A DNA stretch of 64,000 bases from Azospirillaceae bacterium. Lineage in GTDB: Bacteria; Pseudomonadota; Alphaproteobacteria; Azospirillales; Azospirillaceae. The notes beneath the pieces are model-generated. The model was not told where the DNA came from. It made no database searches and saw only the letters and a list, made by a program, of their open reading frames with translations. Below, piece after piece: positions 52,973 through 63,097 of the stretch (position 1 is the stretch's first letter; each line of letters begins with the position of its first letter). The stretch lies in contig DASQNC010000002.1 of the NCBI GenBank assembly GCA_035645145.1, positions 1 to 64,000 of the forward strand, read 5' to 3'. Both the position numbers and the translations under genes were made by a program.

Positions 52973-53821
52973 ATGCCTGCGACCGCTTCCCTCGCCGCAA
53001 CCCGGCCCCTGACGTTACCGCCGCTCCTCGGACCCGGCGATCCGCCCCCTGTGGAGGTTCTGAACCGCCAGGGCCGGTCGAAAGCCCTGCTGCTGTGCGA
53101 TCACGCCTCGAACCGCGTCCCGTCCGGCTTGGACCTCGGCGTGCCGCAGGCGGAATTGGAGCGACACATCGGCTACGACATCGGCGGACGGTGGATGACC
53201 GAGCGGCTGATGGAACGGTTGGATGCCGCCGCGGTGTTCTCGGCCTATTCCCGCCTGGTGGTGGACCTGAACCGTGGCTACGGCGATCCGACATCGATCC
53301 CCGAGGTCAGCGACGGCACCGTGGTTCCCGGCAACCGCGGTATCGGCGAGGAGGAGGTGGCGCGCCGCATGGACGCGCTCTACCACCCCTACCACGCCGC
53401 GGTGGCGGGGGAGTTGGCCCGCATGTCGGCCGAGGGGTACGCCCCCGCCGTCATCTCGATGCACAGCTTCACGCCCTGCATGAAGGGATTCCGCCGCCCC
53501 TGGCATGTGGGGGTGCTGTGGGATTACGATCCGCGCATGCCGGTTCCTCTGATCGCCAGCCTCCTGCGCCGGGGTGACGTCTGTGTCGGCGACAACCAAC
53601 CCTATTCGGGCCGTGGCCTGACCGGGCACACGATCGACGTCCACTGCGCCGCCGCCGGCCTGCCCAACGTCCTGATCGAGGTCCGCCAGGATTTGATCGC
53701 CACCGAGGCGGACGCCCATCGCTGGGCCGACATCCTGTACGAGCCGCTTGTTGAGATCCTGTTCGACCCGGACCTGTATGTGGCCCGCCGCTATGAGGCG
53801 CCCGGGCTGCCGGTCCCATGA
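52973..53821 (+). CDS. N-formylglutamate amidohydrolase family protein
   Basis: 282 residues. Zinc amidohydrolase family PF05013: LLLCDHASNRVP with a metal ligand, LERHIGYDIGGRWM, YSRLVVDLNR, ISMHSFTPCM, and LIEVRQDLI near the end. It could act on N-formylglutamate (histidine breakdown) but no hut genes are near. The stop codon overlaps the start of the ligase gene (ATGA at 53818-53821), suggesting a joint function with YbdK-type ligase. Confidence 0.9.
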   Translation: MPATASLAATRPLTLPPLLGPGDPPPVEVLNRQGRSKALLLCDHASNRVPSGLDLGVPQAELERHIGYDIGGRWMTERLMERLDAAAVFSAYSRLVVDLNRGYGDPTSIPEVSDGTVVPGNRGIGEEEVARRMDALYHPYHAAVAGELARMSAEGYAPAVISMHSFTPCMKGFRRPWHVGVLWDYDPRMPVPLIASLLRRGDVCVGDNQPYSGRGLTGHTIDVHCAAAGLPNVLIEVRQDLIATEADAHRWADILYEPLVEILFDPDLYVARRYEAPGLPVP

Positions 53822-54960
53822 GCAGGGGTGCCATGGCCGAAGGCCTTTCGTTGGGTATCGAGGAGGAATACCTCCTCGTCGACCTGCAAACCCGGGACAT
53901 CGTGCCGGAGCCGCCCGACAGCCTGCTCTCGGCCTGCGAACAGGAATTGGGGGATCAGGTCCATCCCGAATTCCTGCGCTGCCAATTGGAGGTTTCGACC
54001 AGGGTCTGCGGCTCGCTGGCCGAGGCCCGGGCCGATCTGGCGCGCCTCCGGTCCACGGTCGCCCGCATCGCGCGCGACCACGGCATGGCGCCGATCGCGG
54101 CGTCGGCCCATCCCTTTGCGGTCTGGCGTCCGCAGAAATACACCGACCGCGACCGTTACAAGCTCCTGGCCCGTGCGCTCGGCGCACCGGTGCGCCGGCT
54201 CATGATCTGCGGCCTGCACGTGCATGTGGGCGTGCCGGACCCCGAGCTGCGCATCGACCTGATGAACCAGGCCCGCTATTTCCTGCCCCATATCCTGGCG
54301 CTGACCACCTCGTCGCCGTTCTGGCAGGGGCATGAGACGGGGCTCTACTCCTACCGCCTGGCGGTGCTGCAGGAGCTTCCGCGCACCGGCATGCCGGAAA
54401 CCTTCGCAAGCTGGGGCGAGTACAGGCAGGCGGTGGAGGTATTGGTCGGGACCGGCGTGATCCGCGACGGCAGCGAGCTGTGGTGGGACATCCGTCCATC
54501 GGTCAAGTTCCCAACGCTGGAGATGCGCATCTCCGACGTTTGCACACGCCTGGACGACAGTCTGACCGCCGCCGCCATCTACGTCTGCCTGCTCGGCATG
54601 TTGTCCCGGTTGCGGCGCGAGAACATCACATGGCGCCCGTACCGCAACATGCTGATCGGCGAGAACCGCTGGCGGGCGCAGCGGTACGGTTTCGACGAAG
54701 GGATGGTCGATTTCGGCCGGGGCGAGTTGGTGGGATACCCCGACCTGCTGGAAGAGATCCTGACCCTGTTGGCGCCGGATGCCGAAGTCCACGGTTGCCA
54801 GGCGGAACTGGCGAACGCCCGCCAGATCGTCGCCCGCGGCACCAGCGCCCACCGCCAGCTCGCCATCTTCCGCGAGGCGCGTGCGGCCGGGGCGGACGAG
54901 CGCGAGGCCTTCCAAAAGGTCGTGGATTGGCTGGTTCAGGAGACCGTCGAAGGGGTGTGA
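53818..54960 (+). CDS. Carboxylate-amine ligase, YbdK family (glutamate-cysteine ligase-like)
   Basis: 380 residues of the GCS2 family. It opens with SLGIEEEYLLVDL, the ATP/Mg site; others are EFLRCQLEVSTRVC, HPFAVWRPQKYTDRDRY, ICGLHVHVGVPD and WDIRPSVKFPTLEMRISDVC. E. coli YbdK has weak glutamate-cysteine ligase activity; the true substrate is unknown. Coupled to the preceding amidohydrolase gene. Confidence 0.92.
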   Translation: MSRGAMAEGLSLGIEEEYLLVDLQTRDIVPEPPDSLLSACEQELGDQVHPEFLRCQLEVSTRVCGSLAEARADLARLRSTVARIARDHGMAPIAASAHPFAVWRPQKYTDRDRYKLLARALGAPVRRLMICGLHVHVGVPDPELRIDLMNQARYFLPHILALTTSSPFWQGHETGLYSYRLAVLQELPRTGMPETFASWGEYRQAVEVLVGTGVIRDGSELWWDIRPSVKFPTLEMRISDVCTRLDDSLTAAAIYVCLLGMLSRLRRENITWRPYRNMLIGENRWRAQRYGFDEGMVDFGRGELVGYPDLLEEILTLLAPDAEVHGCQAELANARQIVARGTSAHRQLAIFREARAAGADEREAFQKVVDWLVQETVEGV

Positions 54961-55751: not shown

Positions 55752-55784
55752 GGGACCTGGAAACGGTGTGGCCGGGTCCCTTTT
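55752..55784 (+). terminator. Rho-independent terminator of gapR
   Basis: Stem GGGACC(TGG) 55752-55760 with (CC)GGGTCCC 55772-55780, about 9 bp with one wobble, followed by TTTT. It starts 7 nt after the gapR stop. Confidence 0.8.
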
Positions 55785-55830
55785 CATCCGCCCACGGCCC
55801 GCCGAACGCCCCAAGGTTCGAGGTGCCGCC

Positions 55831-56187
55831 GTGAAACCCCACGTGATCAGCCTGCTGGCCGGAGCCTTGCTGGCCGTCGCGGCCCTGGGTTTCCTGGCAG
55901 TGTCCTGGCTCGGCATCGGTGCGGACGACCCGCAGTCCCGTGGGCGCCAACTGGCCGAACGCATGTGCGCCGGGTGCCATGCCCTGGCGCCCGGCCAAGC
56001 CAGCCCGGTGCCCCAGGCGCCGTCGCTGACCCGTATTTCCGAGCGTTACCCGGTAGATAGCCTGGCCGAGTCCCTGGCGGAGGGGGTCGTGACCGGCCAT
56101 AACGGGATGCGCATGCCGGAATTCCAACTGACGACCGACCAGATCAACGATCTGCTGGCCTATCTCGGCAGCATCCAGGCGCGCTGA
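55831..56187 (+). CDS. Small class I cytochrome c, membrane-anchored
   Basis: 118 residues. One N-terminal hydrophobic segment (ISLLAGALLAVAALGFLAVS) serves as signal or anchor; heme attachment motif CAGCH follows at about residue 49 and a candidate Met ligand is in GHNGMRMPEF. The fold is complete to YLGSIQAR. GTG 55831 is chosen because upstream codons add an unlikely Arg-rich head. Electron carrier; the partner is unknown, but it sits beside a probable copper-response locus. Confidence 0.83.
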   Translation: MKPHVISLLAGALLAVAALGFLAVSWLGIGADDPQSRGRQLAERMCAGCHALAPGQASPVPQAPSLTRISERYPVDSLAESLAEGVVTGHNGMRMPEFQLTTDQINDLLAYLGSIQAR

Positions 56188-56441: not shown

Positions 56442-56786
56442 TCAGGACTTTGCGCTGATGCCGGTGATGATGTAGGTGCCCTTGGCATTCTTCGCGAGAG
56501 TGAACGAAACCGCCTGACCGGGCGCGAGCGCGCCCAGGTCCACCGCCGGGTCGACGTCGAAGTCCATCGTCATCTTGGGCCAACGGATGGCCGGGATGGG
56601 CTCGTGATCGATGTTCAGCTTGCGCTTGGCCGCGTCCACCTTCTTGATCACGCCCACACCCGTGACCCCCGGCTGGGTGGCCTGGGTTGCGGTGCCGTGG
56701 CCGCCATGACCGCCGTGCGTGGACTGGGCAAGGACGGGGCCGGCGGTCAGTGCGGCCAGGACCGTCAAGGCTGCAATTCGGATCAT
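56442..56786 (-). CDS. CusF-like periplasmic copper-binding protein
   Basis: 114 residues. Signal peptide ending VLA/QST, then a His-rich stretch (THGGHGGHG) and a CusF/EcpR-like beta domain with the metal motif WPKMTMDFDV (Trp and two Met, as in the Cu(I)/Ag(I) site of CusF), and HEPIPAIRW upstream. AGGAG is 8 nt before ATG 56786. A CueR-like promoter lies 52-82 nt upstream, so copper induction is likely. Periplasmic Cu(I) chaperone or sequestering protein. Confidence 0.9.
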   Translation of the reverse strand: MIRIAALTVLAALTAGPVLAQSTHGGHGGHGTATQATQPGVTGVGVIKKVDAAKRKLNIDHEPIPAIRWPKMTMDFDVDPAVDLGALAPGQAVSFTLAKNAKGTYIITGISAKS

Positions 56787-56837: not shown

Positions 56838-56868
56838 GGTCTGGGGCTTCCAGCAACTGGAAGGTCAA
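56838..56868 (-). promoter_or_regulatory. CueR/HmrR-like copper promoter of the CusF-like gene
   Basis: On the minus strand TTGACC (56863-56868), a 19-nt spacer and CAGACC (56838-56843). The spacer holds a perfect dyad, CTTCCAG-N3-CTGGAAG (56847-56863). Spacing, dyad and sequence follow the E. coli copA promoter pattern bound by CueR. Confidence 0.8.
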
Positions 56869-56910
56869 TCCCTGTCCCGCAAATATCATGAATGGGGGGA
56901 TAGGGCCGCG

Positions 56911-56960
56911 CTTCCGCATGAGGAAGTCCTTGACCTTCCCATCGTTGGAGGCCTGAGCGT
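56911..56960 (+). promoter_or_regulatory. Second CueR-like promoter, facing the reductase gene
   Basis: TTGACC (56930-56935), 19-nt spacer holding CCTTCC...TGGAGG (imperfect dyad), and GAGCGT (56955-56960) as a weak -10. A further dyad CTTCC-N6-GGAAG (56911-56926) is just upstream. ATG 56997 follows. Confidence 0.6.
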
Positions 56961-56996
56961 CGCCGGAGGTTCGCCAACTCCGCAGAGGAAGGACGC

Positions 56997-58055
56997 ATGG
57001 GCCATCAGCTGAACATCCGGCAGGTCGGCAGCCCGATAAAAGCCAAGCCGGGCGCCACCATTCTCGATGCCGCCCTTGACGCCAGTGTCGGCTACCCGCA
57101 CGGATGCCGCTCGGGTCGTTGCGGCATGTGCAAGTCCCGGCTGCTGGAAGGGCGCGTCGAGATGGGCGCCCATACCAAATTCGCGCTTCCGCCCGAACAG
57201 CGGGAACAGGGCCTGATCCTGGCCTGCCGCGCCGTACCGCTCGAGGACTGCACGGTGTCCTGGCTCGGGGACGAGGTGCCGGTCAACCACCCGGTCGAGC
57301 GGATCGCCTGCCGGGTCGAGGCGGTGGAAGACCTCACCCACGACATCCGTCTGGTCCGGCTGGCGTCGAATGACGGCCAATGCATGGTGTTCTCGCCCGG
57401 CCAGTATGCGCGGGTCACCTTCCCCGGATGTCCCACGCGCGACTACTCGATGGCCAACCTGCCGGGCACTCCGGTGCTCGAGTTCTTCGTCCGGCGGGTG
57501 CCGGGAGGAGCCGCCAGCACCTATGCCGCCGAGCGGCTTGCGGTGGGCGACAAAGTCACCGTCGAAGGCCCGTTCGGCAGCGCCTACCTGCGCGAGAGCC
57601 ACGCCGGACCAATCCTTGCCATCGCCGGTGGTTCCGGCTTGGCGCCCATCAAGGCCATTGTCGAAGGGGCGTTGAGCGCCGGGATGCGGCAACCGATCCA
57701 CGTCTACTTCGGGGCGCGGACCGAGCGCGATGTGTACCTTGAGCCGCACTTCGACAGGCTGGCCAAACGGCATCCGAACCTGCAATTCATCCCGGTGCTG
57801 TCCGCGGCGGTGGACGTCACCCACCGCAGGGCCGGCCTTGTGACCCAGGCCGTCGCCGTCGACTTTCTGAGCCTTCGCGGCTGGAAGGTCTATCTGGCCG
57901 GCCCGCCGGGCATGGTCGAGGCGGCGACGGCCCTGGCTGGACGCCGTGATGCCCAGCCGGGCGACATCCACGCCGATGCGTTCTATACCCTGGCCGATAC
58001 GCTTGGTATCGCCGATCCGCCCCAGACAGGGGACGCCGTGCTGATCCAGGAATAA
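56997..58055 (+). CDS. 2Fe-2S/flavin oxidoreductase (class IA/IB-type reductase)
   Basis: 352 residues. N-terminal plant-type ferredoxin domain with cluster cysteines in PHGCRSGRCGMCKSRLLEG and a fourth Cys in LILACRAVP; FAD-binding domain with the RDYSMAN segment (RxYSxxN); NAD(P)H domain with IAGGSGLAPIKAI and YLAGPPGMVEAA. This is the layout of reductases of aromatic dioxygenases, CDP-glucoseen reductase and methane monooxygenase C. No oxygenase gene is near; it is preceded by a CueR-like promoter, so it may serve a copper-stress function. AGAGGAAGG precedes the ATG. Confidence 0.88.
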   Translation: MGHQLNIRQVGSPIKAKPGATILDAALDASVGYPHGCRSGRCGMCKSRLLEGRVEMGAHTKFALPPEQREQGLILACRAVPLEDCTVSWLGDEVPVNHPVERIACRVEAVEDLTHDIRLVRLASNDGQCMVFSPGQYARVTFPGCPTRDYSMANLPGTPVLEFFVRRVPGGAASTYAAERLAVGDKVTVEGPFGSAYLRESHAGPILAIAGGSGLAPIKAIVEGALSAGMRQPIHVYFGARTERDVYLEPHFDRLAKRHPNLQFIPVLSAAVDVTHRRAGLVTQAVAVDFLSLRGWKVYLAGPPGMVEAATALAGRRDAQPGDIHADAFYTLADTLGIADPPQTGDAVLIQE

Positions 58056-58156
58056 GGGAGCTTCGCTTCCATGGCGTCCGGAGCGGCGGGAATGTGGATC
58101 GGGTGGGTGTCGTCATCATTGATGCCCGTTGCCCCACACCCCGCATTCCCGCTGCC

Positions 58157-58182
58157 TGCCGCATCGGTGCACCGATGCGGCA
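58157..58182. repeat. Perfect 26-bp palindrome
   Basis: Two 13-nt arms (TGCCGCATCGGTG and complement) with no spacer, in the 284-nt gap between the reductase and the Spy-like gene. It could act as a terminator, an operator or an mRNA hairpin. The rest of the gap shows nothing else I can support. Confidence 0.7.
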
Positions 58183-58339
58183 CTCCCCAAGCCGGTTGGA
58201 TCAAGGAGCCGCAACGTGCGCCCGTTGATCCTCGGGTCATCGGCAGGCATTCCGGTGCGGAGTGCGCCAGTAGATCGGCCGGTTGCCACCCACAGAGGTC
58301 GCCCCTCCGGGCGGCCAGTAAGAAGGAATAGGACAAACC

Positions 58340-58903
58340 ATGCTCCTCCGTGCGGCTCTTGCAGCCATTCTTCTGCTGCCGGCCCTGGCTTCGGCGCAGA
58401 CGTCGCCTTATTCCGGGCAGCAGGTCCGTGACATCAAGGCGCTTACCCAGGCCGACGTGGACGGCCTTCTGCAAGGCAAGGGAATGGAGATGGCCCTGCC
58501 GGCCGAGCTGAACGGCTATCCCGGCCCGTCCCATGCCCTGGAGTTGGCAAAGGAACTTGGGCTGACGCCGGATCAGATCGCCGCCCTCAAGCCGGTCAAG
58601 GACCGCATGACGGCCGAGGCCACGGCCGTTGGTGCGGAGATCGTCGAAAAGGAACGCACACTCGACCGCATGTTCGCCGACCGCACCGTCGATGCGGGCA
58701 AGCTCCGGTCGATCACCTCGGAGATTGGCGTGCTGCGTGGACGCCTCCGGGCCATCCACCTCTCTGCGCACCTCGACACCGCTGCCATTCTGAGCGCGGA
58801 GCAGGCCCGCCGCTACGACACGTTGCGCGGCTACACCGAGGCGTCGGGCTCCGGCCACCAGCATCCGCCTGCGTCCAACGCGCACGGCCATAAGAAGCCC
58901 TGA
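58340..58903 (+). CDS. Spy/CpxP-like periplasmic protein with His-rich tail
   Basis: 187 residues. Signal peptide cleaved near ALASA/QTS. The mature protein is helical with the LTPDQIAALKPVKDRM and ILSAEQARRYDTLRGY segments typical of Spy/CpxP/CnrX-like 'heavy-metal resistance' proteins (LTxxQ). The C-terminus is His-rich (GSGHQHPPASNAHGHKKP), suggesting metal binding. Downstream of the reductase and CusF-like genes; joint copper regulation is plausible. AGGAATAGGA is 5-7 nt before ATG 58340. Confidence 0.78.
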   Translation: MLLRAALAAILLLPALASAQTSPYSGQQVRDIKALTQADVDGLLQGKGMEMALPAELNGYPGPSHALELAKELGLTPDQIAALKPVKDRMTAEATAVGAEIVEKERTLDRMFADRTVDAGKLRSITSEIGVLRGRLRAIHLSAHLDTAAILSAEQARRYDTLRGYTEASGSGHQHPPASNAHGHKKP

Positions 58904-59164: not shown

Positions 59165-62100
59165 ATGACGATCCGTGACGACATCCAGCAGGCGTACATT
59201 GCCTTCTTCAACCGGCCCGCGGATCCGGCCGGCCTGGCCTGGTGGGAGCAGAAGGCGACCGAGGCCGGCGGCAGCCTGGCCGCCGTCCTCAACGCCTTCA
59301 GCGCCTCGGCCGAGTACCAGCAGATGTACGCCGGCAAGGCCCCGGCCGAGGTCGTCAACCAGATGTACCGCAACCTGTTCGGCCGCGACGCCGAGGACGC
59401 CGGCCTGGCGTTCTGGACCGACGCGCTGGCCAAGGGCACGGTGGACGTCGGCAACATGGCCTTCACCATGGCCACCGGCGCTCAGGGCTCGGACGCCAAG
59501 GTGGTCGTCAACAAGGTCGAGGTCGCGCAGGAGTTCACCAAGGCGCTGGACACGCCGGAGAAGGTCCAGGCCTATTCCGGCGCCGCGGCGGCCAAGGTCG
59601 CCCGCGACTTCCTGGCCGGCATCGATGCCTCCGAGCGCTCGGTGCAGGCGGCCAAGGGCGCGGTGGCCGAGAAGGTCCGGGAGACCGTCGCCGCCGGGCC
59701 CAAGCCCGGCCCCGTCGATCCCGGCCCCGGCACCCCGGCCGGCCAGACCTACACGCTGACCGCCGGCCAGGACACCGTCACCGGCACCAAGGCCGCCGAC
59801 ACCATCAACGCCACGCAAACGACGCTGAATTCGAACGACACCCTGAACGGCGACGACGGCAGCGACACCCTGAACGTCACCGTTGCCGGCGGCCCGCTGG
59901 CCACGGCGGTGGTGCTGACCAGCATCGAGACGGTGAACCTGAACGCCGGCAGCACGGCGTTCACCGCCGACCTGTCCGGCTGGACCGGCGCCCAGGACGT
60001 CCGAGTCGCCAACACCGGCACCTCCACGGTGACGCTGGGCACCGGCACCGCCTACACCGGCGGCGCAGGGGCCGACGTGGTGACGGTCGGCGCCACCACC
60101 AAGGCCATCAACCTGGGCGGCGGCGACGACACCGCCATCGTCTCGGTGGCGGTGGGCACCGGCGGCTCCATCAACGGCGGCGCCGGCACCGCCGACACCC
60201 TGTCCATGACCGCCGCCGATGCGGCCGCACTGTCGGTCGACTCCACCTTCGAGAATGGGGTGAGCGGCTTCGAGCGGGTGGCGGTCGGTGCGGTGGGCGC
60301 CACCACCGCCATCAACATGGCCAAACTGGACGACATCGCCCATCTGACCGTGGCCGGTGTGACCACGGGCGGCTTGACCGTCGACAACATGGCGTCGACC
60401 GGTACGGTGGTGCTGACCGACGCGGTGAATGCGGCGTCCACTATCGCGGTGGAGGATGCGGCGACCGGCACCGCCGATGTGCTGAACCTGCGGCTGGCGG
60501 CGACCGACGGCTTCGCCAACACCGCCGGCACCACGGTGGCGGACGTCGAGACCGTCAACGTCGCGGTCGACGACACCGACACCACTCCGGCCACCACCGC
60601 CTTCACGGTCCGGCTGAACGCGGCGCAGGCGAAGACGGTGGTGCTGTCGGGTGACGCCGGCGTGAACCTGACCGGCTCGACCCTGACCGCGGCGACCACC
60701 ATCGACGGCAGCGGGCTGACCGCCACCGGCACGGCCGGCCGGCTGACCGTGGCCGCCGCCGTGCTGGCGACCACCGGCGTGACCGTGACGGGCGGCGCCG
60801 GCGACGACCAGATCACCGGCAACTCGGCGACCGGCAATGTGGACACGCTGTCCGGCGGCGCCGGGGCCGACACCGTCACCGGCGGGTCGGGCAACGACGT
60901 CCTCAATGGTGGCGATGGCAACGACACGCTCAATGGTGGCGCCGGCAACGACACCCTGACCGGTGGCGCCGGCGTGGACGTGCTGACCGGTTCGAACGGC
61001 GCCGACACCTTCGTGGTCGGCGTGCCGGCGTCCGGTACGCAGCACGACACCATCACCGACGCGGCCGGTGGCGACCGGATCACGCTGGTCGACCGCGGCA
61101 CCGAGACGTTCGCCACGTCGATGATCGTGCTGGGCGGCACGCCGGTGCTCAAGGACTACCTGGACGAGGCGGCCAAGGGCAACGGCAGCACCAACGGCGC
61201 CATCTCCTGGTTCCGGTACAATGGCGACACCTACCTGGTGCAGGACCTGAGCGCCGGCAACACCTTCCAGGACGGCACCGACCTGGTGGTCAAGCTCACC
61301 GGTCTGGTTGACCTCGGCACCGCCGCGGGTGCCGGGACGCACGTGCTGACGCTGCCCTACGTGCTGACCACCGGCACGGATACCCTCACCGGCACCAGCG
61401 CCGACGACACCTTCAGCGCCATGTTCCTCGGCGACACGACCGACACGCTGACCGTCAACGACGCGATCAACGGCGGCGGCGGCAACGACACCCTCAACGT
61501 CACCCTCAACGGCTCGTTGACCGCGGTCCGCACCAACGCGGTGACGGTGAGCAGCGTGGAGACGGTGAACTTCAACGTCACCGGGAATCTGCCGTTCACC
61601 GCCGACCTGTCCGATCCCGCCAGATGGGCCGGCGTGCAGACCGTCAACGTCACCAGCACCGGCGTCAGCACCGTCGTCCTCGGCAACGACACCGCCTACA
61701 ACGGCGGCGTGGGCATCGACGTGGTGACGGTCGGCGCCACCACCAAGTCGGTGAACCTGGGCGGCGGCGACGACTTCGCCGTGGTCTCGACGGCGGCGGG
61801 CACCGGCGGCTCGATCAACGGCGGCACCGGCACCAACACGCTGTCCATGAGCGCGGCGGTGGCGGCGGCGCTGTCGAGCACCGCGGCTTTCGAGGCCGGC
61901 GTCAGTGGTTTCCAGCGGGTGGCGGTCGGCGCGGTGGGCGCGGCCACCACCATCGACATGGCCAATCTCGACGACATCAATCACCTGACCGTGGCCGGCG
62001 TGACCGCGGGCGGCCTGACGGTGACCAACCTGGCGTCGGGTGGAACGTTGATGCTGACCGCCCCCGTGGGGGCTGCGTCCAGCGTAGCGGTGAAGGATAC

Positions 62101-63097
62101 CGGCGCGACCGACGTCCTCAACCTGAGCCTCGAGGGGACGGACGGCTTCGGCAACACCGGGGCCCTCACCGTCACCGGCGCCGAGACCATCAACATCGTC
62201 ACCAACGACTCCAACAGCGGCGCCGGGACCATGACCTTCCTGGCCAATCTCAAAGCGGCGACCGCGACGAAGATCACGGTGTCCGGCGAGATGGGTGTGG
62301 ATTTCACCTTTTCCACGCTGACGGCGGTCACCGTGATCGACGGCAGCGGAATCACCGCCACCGGTTCCGCCGGCGCGCTGACCGTGGACGCCGAGGCGAC
62401 CAGCGGCGTGACCATTACGGGCGGCGCTGGCGACGACCAGATCACCGGCAACTCGGCGACCGGCATGGTGGATACCCTGTCCGGCGGTATGGGCGCCGAC
62501 ACCATCACCGGCGGGTCGGGCAACGACGTCCTCAGCGGCGGCAACGACAACGACACCCTTGATGGGGGGCTTGGCAACGACACCATCGACGGCGGTTGGG
62601 GCATCGACATCCTCAACGGTGGCGACGGCAACGACACCCTCGTTGGGGGGGGCAGCAACGACACCGTCATGGGCGGTGCCGGCAACGACACCCTGACCGG
62701 CGGCGCCGGCATGGACCAACTGACCGGCGGGACCGGCGCCGATACCTTCGTGGCCGAGGCACCGGCAATGATCGCACAGCGCGACACCATCACCGACGCG
62801 GAGGCCGGTGACCGGATCCAGGTCGTGAACCGGGGAACCGAGAGCTTCAACAGCACCGCGCTGACCGGTGAAGCGAGCGTCGCGGCCTACCTGAACCTCG
62901 CGGCCGCCGGCGACGGCGGTGTCAACGGCGCCATTTCCTGGTTCCAGCTCAATGGCGCCACCTACGTGGTCCAGGACCTGAGCGCTGCCGGGTACTTCGT
63001 GGAGGGAACCGATCTGGTGATCCAGCTCACCGGCTTGGTCGATCTCAGCACCGCCACGCTCGGCGGCACTACCGGGAACCTGCTGACGCTGGTGTAA
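59165..63097 (+). CDS. DUF4214/RTX-repeat exoprotein (S-layer or adhesin-like)
   Basis: 1310 residues, probably exported by a type I system since no signal peptide is present and glycine/aspartate-rich calcium-binding repeats are. Residues 1-165 hold DUF4214-like repeats (AYIAFFNRPADPAGLAWWEQ; MYRNLFGRDAEDAGLAFWTD). A Pro/Gly linker (about 180-196) precedes two related halves: 197-730 and 731-1310. Each has a beta-rich part (AINLGGGDDTAIVS / SVNLGGGDDFAVVS) and an RTX block of GGxGxDxL nonapeptides (near 560-615 and 1100-1195). It ends in a hydrophobic tail TGNLLTLV, typical of type I signals. Thr, Gly, Ala and Asp are very frequent; Cys appears absent. No secretion genes are in the window. 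Confidence 0.85.
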   Translation: MTIRDDIQQAYIAFFNRPADPAGLAWWEQKATEAGGSLAAVLNAFSASAEYQQMYAGKAPAEVVNQMYRNLFGRDAEDAGLAFWTDALAKGTVDVGNMAFTMATGAQGSDAKVVVNKVEVAQEFTKALDTPEKVQAYSGAAAAKVARDFLAGIDASERSVQAAKGAVAEKVRETVAAGPKPGPVDPGPGTPAGQTYTLTAGQDTVTGTKAADTINATQTTLNSNDTLNGDDGSDTLNVTVAGGPLATAVVLTSIETVNLNAGSTAFTADLSGWTGAQDVRVANTGTSTVTLGTGTAYTGGAGADVVTVGATTKAINLGGGDDTAIVSVAVGTGGSINGGAGTADTLSMTAADAAALSVDSTFENGVSGFERVAVGAVGATTAINMAKLDDIAHLTVAGVTTGGLTVDNMASTGTVVLTDAVNAASTIAVEDAATGTADVLNLRLAATDGFANTAGTTVADVETVNVAVDDTDTTPATTAFTVRLNAAQAKTVVLSGDAGVNLTGSTLTAATTIDGSGLTATGTAGRLTVAAAVLATTGVTVTGGAGDDQITGNSATGNVDTLSGGAGADTVTGGSGNDVLNGGDGNDTLNGGAGNDTLTGGAGVDVLTGSNGADTFVVGVPASGTQHDTITDAAGGDRITLVDRGTETFATSMIVLGGTPVLKDYLDEAAKGNGSTNGAISWFRYNGDTYLVQDLSAGNTFQDGTDLVVKLTGLVDLGTAAGAGTHVLTLPYVLTTGTDTLTGTSADDTFSAMFLGDTTDTLTVNDAINGGGGNDTLNVTLNGSLTAVRTNAVTVSSVETVNFNVTGNLPFTADLSDPARWAGVQTVNVTSTGVSTVVLGNDTAYNGGVGIDVVTVGATTKSVNLGGGDDFAVVSTAAGTGGSINGGTGTNTLSMSAAVAAALSSTAAFEAGVSGFQRVAVGAVGAATTIDMANLDDINHLTVAGVTAGGLTVTNLASGGTLMLTAPVGAASSVAVKDTGATDVLNLSLEGTDGFGNTGALTVTGAETINIVTNDSNSGAGTMTFLANLKAATATKITVSGEMGVDFTFSTLTAVTVIDGSGITATGSAGALTVDAEATSGVTITGGAGDDQITGNSATGMVDTLSGGMGADTITGGSGNDVLSGGNDNDTLDGGLGNDTIDGGWGIDILNGGDGNDTLVGGGSNDTVMGGAGNDTLTGGAGMDQLTGGTGADTFVAEAPAMIAQRDTITDAEAGDRIQVVNRGTESFNSTALTGEASVAAYLNLAAAGDGGVNGAISWFQLNGATYVVQDLSAAGYFVEGTDLVIQLTGLVDLSTATLGGTTGNLLTLV

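Follow-up and report, generated by a model that had tools for sequence, protein, structure and literature searches.

We identified, in a 64,000-nucleotide stretch of an Azospirillaceae genome (hereafter the window), a gene for a ferredoxin-type NAD(P)H reductase of a copper-linked clade, apparently a copper-defence branch, not described before, of a family of reductases that are otherwise known as electron suppliers of oxygenases. From the genome's own set of CueR boxes and from a conserved linkage of related reductase genes with CueR boxes, copA and cueR (36 of 37 loci), we strongly infer that the gene is a member of the CueR regulon and is controlled by copper through CueR. No description of this reductase subfamily in a CueR/HmrR regulon was found in the open-access papers searched, including those checked on rhizobial and Methylorubrum copper clusters, in which the reductase is not mentioned, and a prior description elsewhere is possible. 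The initial annotation of this DNA had likewise regarded a reductase in a copper regulon as unfamiliar.

Gene content of the locus

The following features were annotated in the locus.

56442-56786, minus strand: cusF-like gene encoding a periplasmic Cu(I)-binding protein (Pfam CusF_Ec, 1.3e-24; signal-peptide-like N-terminus)
56838-56868, minus strand: CueR-type promoter of cusF (-35 TTGACC at 56863-56868; 19-nt dyad spacer; weak -10 CAGACC at 56838-56843)
56930-56960, plus strand: CueR-type promoter of the reductase gene (-35 TTGACC at 56930-56935; 19-nt dyad spacer; weak -10 GAGCGT at 56955-56960)
56997-58055, plus strand: reductase, 352 aa (Pfam Fer2, FAD_binding_6 and NAD_binding_1, each above cut-off)
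57117-57119, plus strand: codon of Arg41, the diagnostic residue of the copper-linked clade, located in the cluster loop C37-RSG-R41-C42-GM-C45
58340-58903, plus strand: exported Metal_resist/LTXXQ (Spy/CpxP/CnrX-like) protein with a His-rich tail (Pfam and sequence)

The product of the minus-strand gene retains the copper ligands of CusF in the pattern H-x7-W-x2-M-x-M, equivalent to H36/W44/M47/M49-type ligands, and its best PDB match is CusF (2vb2, 3.9e-12), with the H/W/M/M ligands conserved. The CusF-like protein named in the initial annotation is thereby confirmed. No cusCBA genes were found adjoining cusF, and their presence is not essential for the identity of CusF. A gene of the GCS2 glutamate-cysteine ligase family lies 1.5 kb from cusF (window 53818-54960).

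The reductase comprises a [2Fe-2S] ferredoxin domain (residues 1-92) followed by an FAD domain and an NAD(P) domain, and no signal peptide or other export signal is evident in it. Its earlier description as a ferredoxin-type NAD(P)H reductase without an oxygenase partner agrees with these domains and with the genome: no oxygenase gene is adjacent, and a genome search for oxygenases of the PaaA_PaaC type gave no match.

The exported protein scores 34.5 bits against Metal_resist (cut-off 29.2) and 24.5 against LTXXQ (cut-off 24.3, barely exceeded), and a signal-peptide-like start accompanies the His-rich tail, which upholds the original Spy/CpxP-like assignment. Its gene is located 284 nt 3' of the reductase gene and has no CueR box of its own before it. 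No intrinsic terminator was detected in the 284-nt gap, and co-transcription of the two genes is no more than a possibility. Further downstream (window 59165-63097), a 1310-aa protein with DUF4214 and RTX repeats (HemolysinCabind) is encoded, probably a secreted or surface protein with no relation to copper.

CueR-type promoters and the copper regulon of the genome

The cusF promoter reads TTGACC-TTCCAGTTGCTGGAAGCCC-CAGACC (minus strand, 56868 to 56838) and the reductase promoter TTGACC-TTCCCATCGTTGGAGGCCT-GAGCGT (plus strand, 56930-56960), the -35 hexamer of the latter starting 67 nt 5' of the ATG. Both -10 hexamers are poor, and the conserved element is the dyad CTTCC-N7-GGA(A/G)G. A general sigma-70 scan misses both promoters because it permits spacers of 16-18 nt only. 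Just 5' of the reductase -35 hexamer, at window 56911-56926, there is a second perfect dyad, CTTCC-GCATGA-GGAAG, with a centre of 6 nt instead of 7, which may represent an auxiliary or degenerate pair of CueR half-sites.

The 3.89-Mb genome contains four exact matches to the pattern TTGACCTTCCNNNNNNTGGA, compared with about 0.01 expected from base composition. Two of these matches are the sites in the window (56849-56868, minus strand, and 56930-56949, plus strand) from which the pattern was derived, and the other two, both on contig C71, therefore constitute an independent test. They are located before a DUF4396 gene and before copA, which is directly followed by cueR. A box with one mismatch on the same contig precedes a copZ-like HMA gene and then genes that include one for a multicopper oxidase, and the sole other one-mismatch box in the genome is on contig C25. 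The MerR-family protein encoded on contig C71 passes the NCBI equivalog model for CueR (TIGR02044; 179.2 bits, cut-off 147.4) and carries the metal-loop motif ACHGDHRPDC. At the level of sequence, these results confirm that the boxes are not due to chance and that the two divergent CueR-type promoters recognised in the initial annotation, each with TTGACC, a 19-nt spacer and a dyad, are present. The DUF4396 gene (L040:10119-10730), which precedes copA and has an exact CueR box before it, encodes a His-rich membrane protein that is a probable but unexplained member of the copper regulon.

Distribution of copper-linked relatives

The proteins most closely related to the reductase (44-61% identity) form two sets. 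In the copper-type set, which derives from rhizobial plasmids and genomes, Halomonadaceae and one further family, the reductase gene is found with copA, cueR, a glutaredoxin gene, copZ or DUF305, whereas in the other set, mainly from Reyranella and other Alphaproteobacteria, copper genes were not detected and there is no CueR box nearby. Once proteins with identical first 330 residues had been reduced to one representative, the sets comprised 37 copper-type and 102 other loci, the copper-type label being assigned by the presence of a CueR box or copA and not by protein sequence.

The commonest conserved partner is the Cu(I) pump CopA, the others being CueR and, often, a glutaredoxin. Operons of the form copA-(grx)-reductase-(cueR) with a CueR box before copA account for 20 of the 37 loci, and in 16 a box lies directly 5' of a grx-reductase pair or of the reductase gene itself; L224 is the sole copper-type locus with neither arrangement by these criteria. 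In 35 of 37 copper-type loci, but in none of the 102 others, a box with at most one mismatch lies no further than 4.5 kb away (Fisher p = 7e-31, a value that overstates independence because many of the 37 loci are close kin, with independent cases estimated at perhaps a dozen). The contrast between copper-type and other loci remains stark despite such kinship.

The copper-response locus proposed in the initial annotation was borne out in part. The copper link of the reductase stands, through the CueR boxes and the linkage with copA and cueR, but a conserved CusF-reductase-Spy neighbourhood was rejected, because no related locus has close relatives of this CusF or of the His-rich protein.

Copper-type matches were identified in three of 385 genomes sampled from the class (including the genome of the window), five of 201 Halomonadaceae genomes and, in one rhizobial family, 21 of 298 genomes; a CueR box or copA lies close by in each of the 21 rhizobial loci that were read. 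Within the family of the present genome, a relative at E<=1e-60 occurs in six of 82 genomes (again including its own), and in the same-family loci that were read (L043-L047), no CueR box appears even when up to two mismatches are allowed. Since few same-family genomes have a relative and a same-genus genome has only one of 38% identity, the reductase gene is patchily distributed.

Signature residues and structure of the clade

A tree that also included 34 non-copper relatives places the window protein together with the 37 copper-type proteins on one side of a branch supported at 98/98.6; the corresponding support was 93/80 in an earlier tree with fewer copper-type sequences. The residue before the second Fe-S cysteine (Arg41 in the window protein, CxxG-R-CGxC) is Arg in 37 of 37 copper-type proteins and in none of the 102 others, nearly all of which have Asn at this position, although this and the other residue differences between the sets represent one evolutionary split and not independent events. 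This one-residue signature makes the clade easy to find and test. His59 is fixed in the copper-type set and also present in a few other proteins, and the window protein has both R41 and H59.

The changes between the two sets are concentrated in the Fer2 domain, and several of the strongest ones there alter charge (N to R at position 41, E to R/P at 61 and E to T at 86). Net charge in this domain averages -5.9 in the non-copper set and -0.8 in the copper-type set and is +2 in the window protein, whereas the mean charge of the FAD and NAD domains is hardly altered. Such a pattern would follow from a change of electron acceptor that left the NAD(P)H-FAD part as it was, and it suggests that the copper-linked clade has a new electron acceptor. 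The cluster loop is the place where ferredoxin domains of this kind contact their acceptor. The reductases of Halomonadaceae (L048, L049, L199-L202) end in CSCC (five of six) or SCC (one of six), a tail present in no other member of the clade and a possible Cu(I)-binding or relay site.

The AlphaFold2 model of the reductase (mean pLDDT 84.9) has a pTM of 0.69, and the placement of its domains is therefore less sure. Its top structural matches are GcoB, CarAd, BenC and T4moF, and it has the fold of a soluble reductase that carries sites for NAD(P)H, FAD and [2Fe-2S]. The nearest solved structures, GcoB (PDB 5ogx) and BenC (PDB 1krh), share with the window protein the domain order, fold, Fe-S cysteines and NAD(P)H/FAD domains. 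The window protein differs from reductases of this type in having no oxygenase partner, an Arg in the cluster loop, predicted CueR control and linkage to CopA, and its score against the BenC equivalog model is 204, far below the cut-off of 430.

Sister-clade reductases from Reyranella and other Alphaproteobacteria show about 55% identity to the window protein, with equal length and domains. Unlike the copper clade, they have a GNC instead of a GRC loop, an acidic Fer2 domain, no CueR box and no copper genes. Several of their genes (L056:4289-6981, L145, L057, L067 and L094) adjoin an SDR gene, accompanied in L056 and L145 by a gene for a PaaA-like diiron protein, and these loci look like an uncharacterised oxygenase system. 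A paralogue with 49% identity and the loop CRTGECG is encoded on contig C16 of the same genome (L041:3225-5970), where its gene follows a cytochrome b561/ethylbenzene-dehydrogenase-type fusion gene and no copper genes were noted nearby.

Proposed function of the reductase

It is plausible, though somewhat short of probable, that the reductase is a cytosolic NAD(P)H-driven enzyme that maintains copper, or copper-thiol complexes, in the Cu(I) state for export by CopA. This reading is based on CopA, a Cu(I) pump, being the most frequent partner, on the thiol-rich CSCC tail in Halomonas, which could bind copper, and on the known Fe-S-based reduction of Cu(II) by CcoG and Archaeoglobus CopZ. For this reaction, which in Archaeoglobus CopZ belongs to the [2Fe-2S] domain, the electron donor is unknown in both proteins (PMC7558416). 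A CueR-regulated flavo-iron-sulfur enzyme that uses NAD(P)H and accompanies CopA in dozens of genomes is a ready candidate for the missing source of electrons.

In the proposed mechanism, Cu(I)-bound CueR would switch on the genes for the reductase, CopA, the run from copZ to the multicopper oxidase, the DUF4396 membrane protein and CusF. Judging from the conserved domains, electrons would pass from NAD(P)H to FAD and then to the [2Fe-2S] centre, from which the remodelled, more basic Fer2 face may hand them singly to cytosolic Cu(II) or to an oxidised copper-thiol complex. Copper would thereby be held as Cu(I), the form exported by CopA and sensed by CueR, and CusF would afterwards bind Cu(I) in the periplasm. 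The co-operonic CPDC glutaredoxin of many rhizobia or the C-terminal CSCC tail of Halomonas may hold or relay copper or electrons. For the clade as a whole, we tentatively put forward a dedicated soluble bacterial cupric reductase, namely a former oxygenase reductase with a rebuilt ferredoxin face that might reduce copper directly or via glutaredoxin or the CSCC tail and provide Cu(I) to CopA, comparable to MerA for mercury under MerR. If true, this would illustrate cleanly how metal defence can recruit a reductase of the oxygenase type through changes concentrated in the ferredoxin domain.

Parts of this proposal have counterparts in known systems. CcoG (FixG) is an Fe-S protein proposed to supply Cu(I) to P1B ATPases, but it lies in the membrane, carries two 4Fe-4S clusters and lacks a flavin, whereas the window reductase consists of Fer2, FAD and NAD domains only; a FixG_C domain was not found in the genome by a search that a YccM-like form without that domain would escape. 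The CopZ of Archaeoglobus fulgidus has a [2Fe-2S] centre tied to Cu(II) reduction and to CopA, but it lacks FAD and NAD domains and its cluster domain is of another kind, fused to a chaperone domain. The E. coli CueR regulon (copA, cueO) resembles the present one in box architecture, regulator, CopA and a multicopper oxidase, and it is not known to include a reductase of the window type.

Several points argue against a cupric reductase. The cytosol is already reducing, and glutathione reduces Cu(II) unaided. Arg41 and the basic cluster face seem ill-suited to free Cu2+ and would better suit an anionic complex or an acidic protein, and the window protein itself has neither a CSCC tail nor a neighbouring glutaredoxin. 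Two close rivals of the cupric-reductase reading remain live, one of them Fe-S repair, which the initial annotation had named alongside re-reduction of Cu(II).

As copper displaces iron from exposed clusters and disturbs their assembly, the reductase could instead be a copper-induced stand-in for ferredoxin and ferredoxin reductase that feeds Fe-S cluster assembly or repair. We consider this role unlikely, if by no means far-fetched. The fused ferredoxin-ferredoxin reductase architecture and the remodelled electron-output domain are consistent with it, and copper damage to iron proteins is established (review PMC7558416). However, no Fe-S assembly gene was found among the neighbours examined, where the constant partners are CopA and CueR, and the reductase itself holds a [2Fe-2S] cluster.

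It is more doubtful that the reductase and the CPDC glutaredoxin perform an NAD(P)H-dependent disulfide or peroxide defence. A precedent is the copZ-prxgrx-gorB operon of Bordetella pertussis, in which a glutaredoxin and an NADPH-dependent flavoenzyme serve copper defence under CueR (PMC7794356), although GorB is a glutathione reductase of another fold without a [2Fe-2S] domain. A glutaredoxin gene is present in 22 of 37 copper-type loci, directly 5' of the reductase gene in 20, and in none of the 102 others, but it is missing from Halomonas, several rhizobial loci and the window locus, and a search without a positive control found no relative of the copper-type glutaredoxin in the genome of the window. 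Moreover, disulfide reduction is not a usual role for a plain [2Fe-2S] donor of single electrons.

Very improbable, in our view, is an ordinary oxygenase reductase that adjoins cusF by chance: the fold, the characterised oxygenase and P450 reductases nearest to it and the PaaA-like neighbours of two sister-clade genes fit such a role, whereas the gene's own exact CueR box, the copper linkage conserved across Alphaproteobacteria and Halomonadaceae and the lack of PaaA_PaaC in the genome argue against it. The transfer of electrons to the nearby c-type cytochrome (55768-56187), as the initial annotation had suggested, has next to no likelihood, since only proximity speaks for it, the two proteins are expected in different compartments (c-type cytochromes being periplasmic) and a cytochrome c of that type is absent from related loci.

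Genes associated with copper-type loci in rhizobia

In Ensifer and relatives (L132:3076-7612, L130, L133, L210-L215 and L218), a multidrug-type RND pump with its own CueR box is encoded divergently from the copper-type reductase. This pump is OqxB/AcrB-like and not CusA-like, which together with the box suggests copper-induced efflux of the multidrug type. Near-identical copper islands were identified on conjugative plasmids of Rhizobium, Ciceribacter and Agrobacterium (L128, L129, L131 and L139:1-17011), and these islands carry genes for two heavy-metal ATPases, a glutaredoxin-reductase pair and several genes of sugar-phosphate metabolism.
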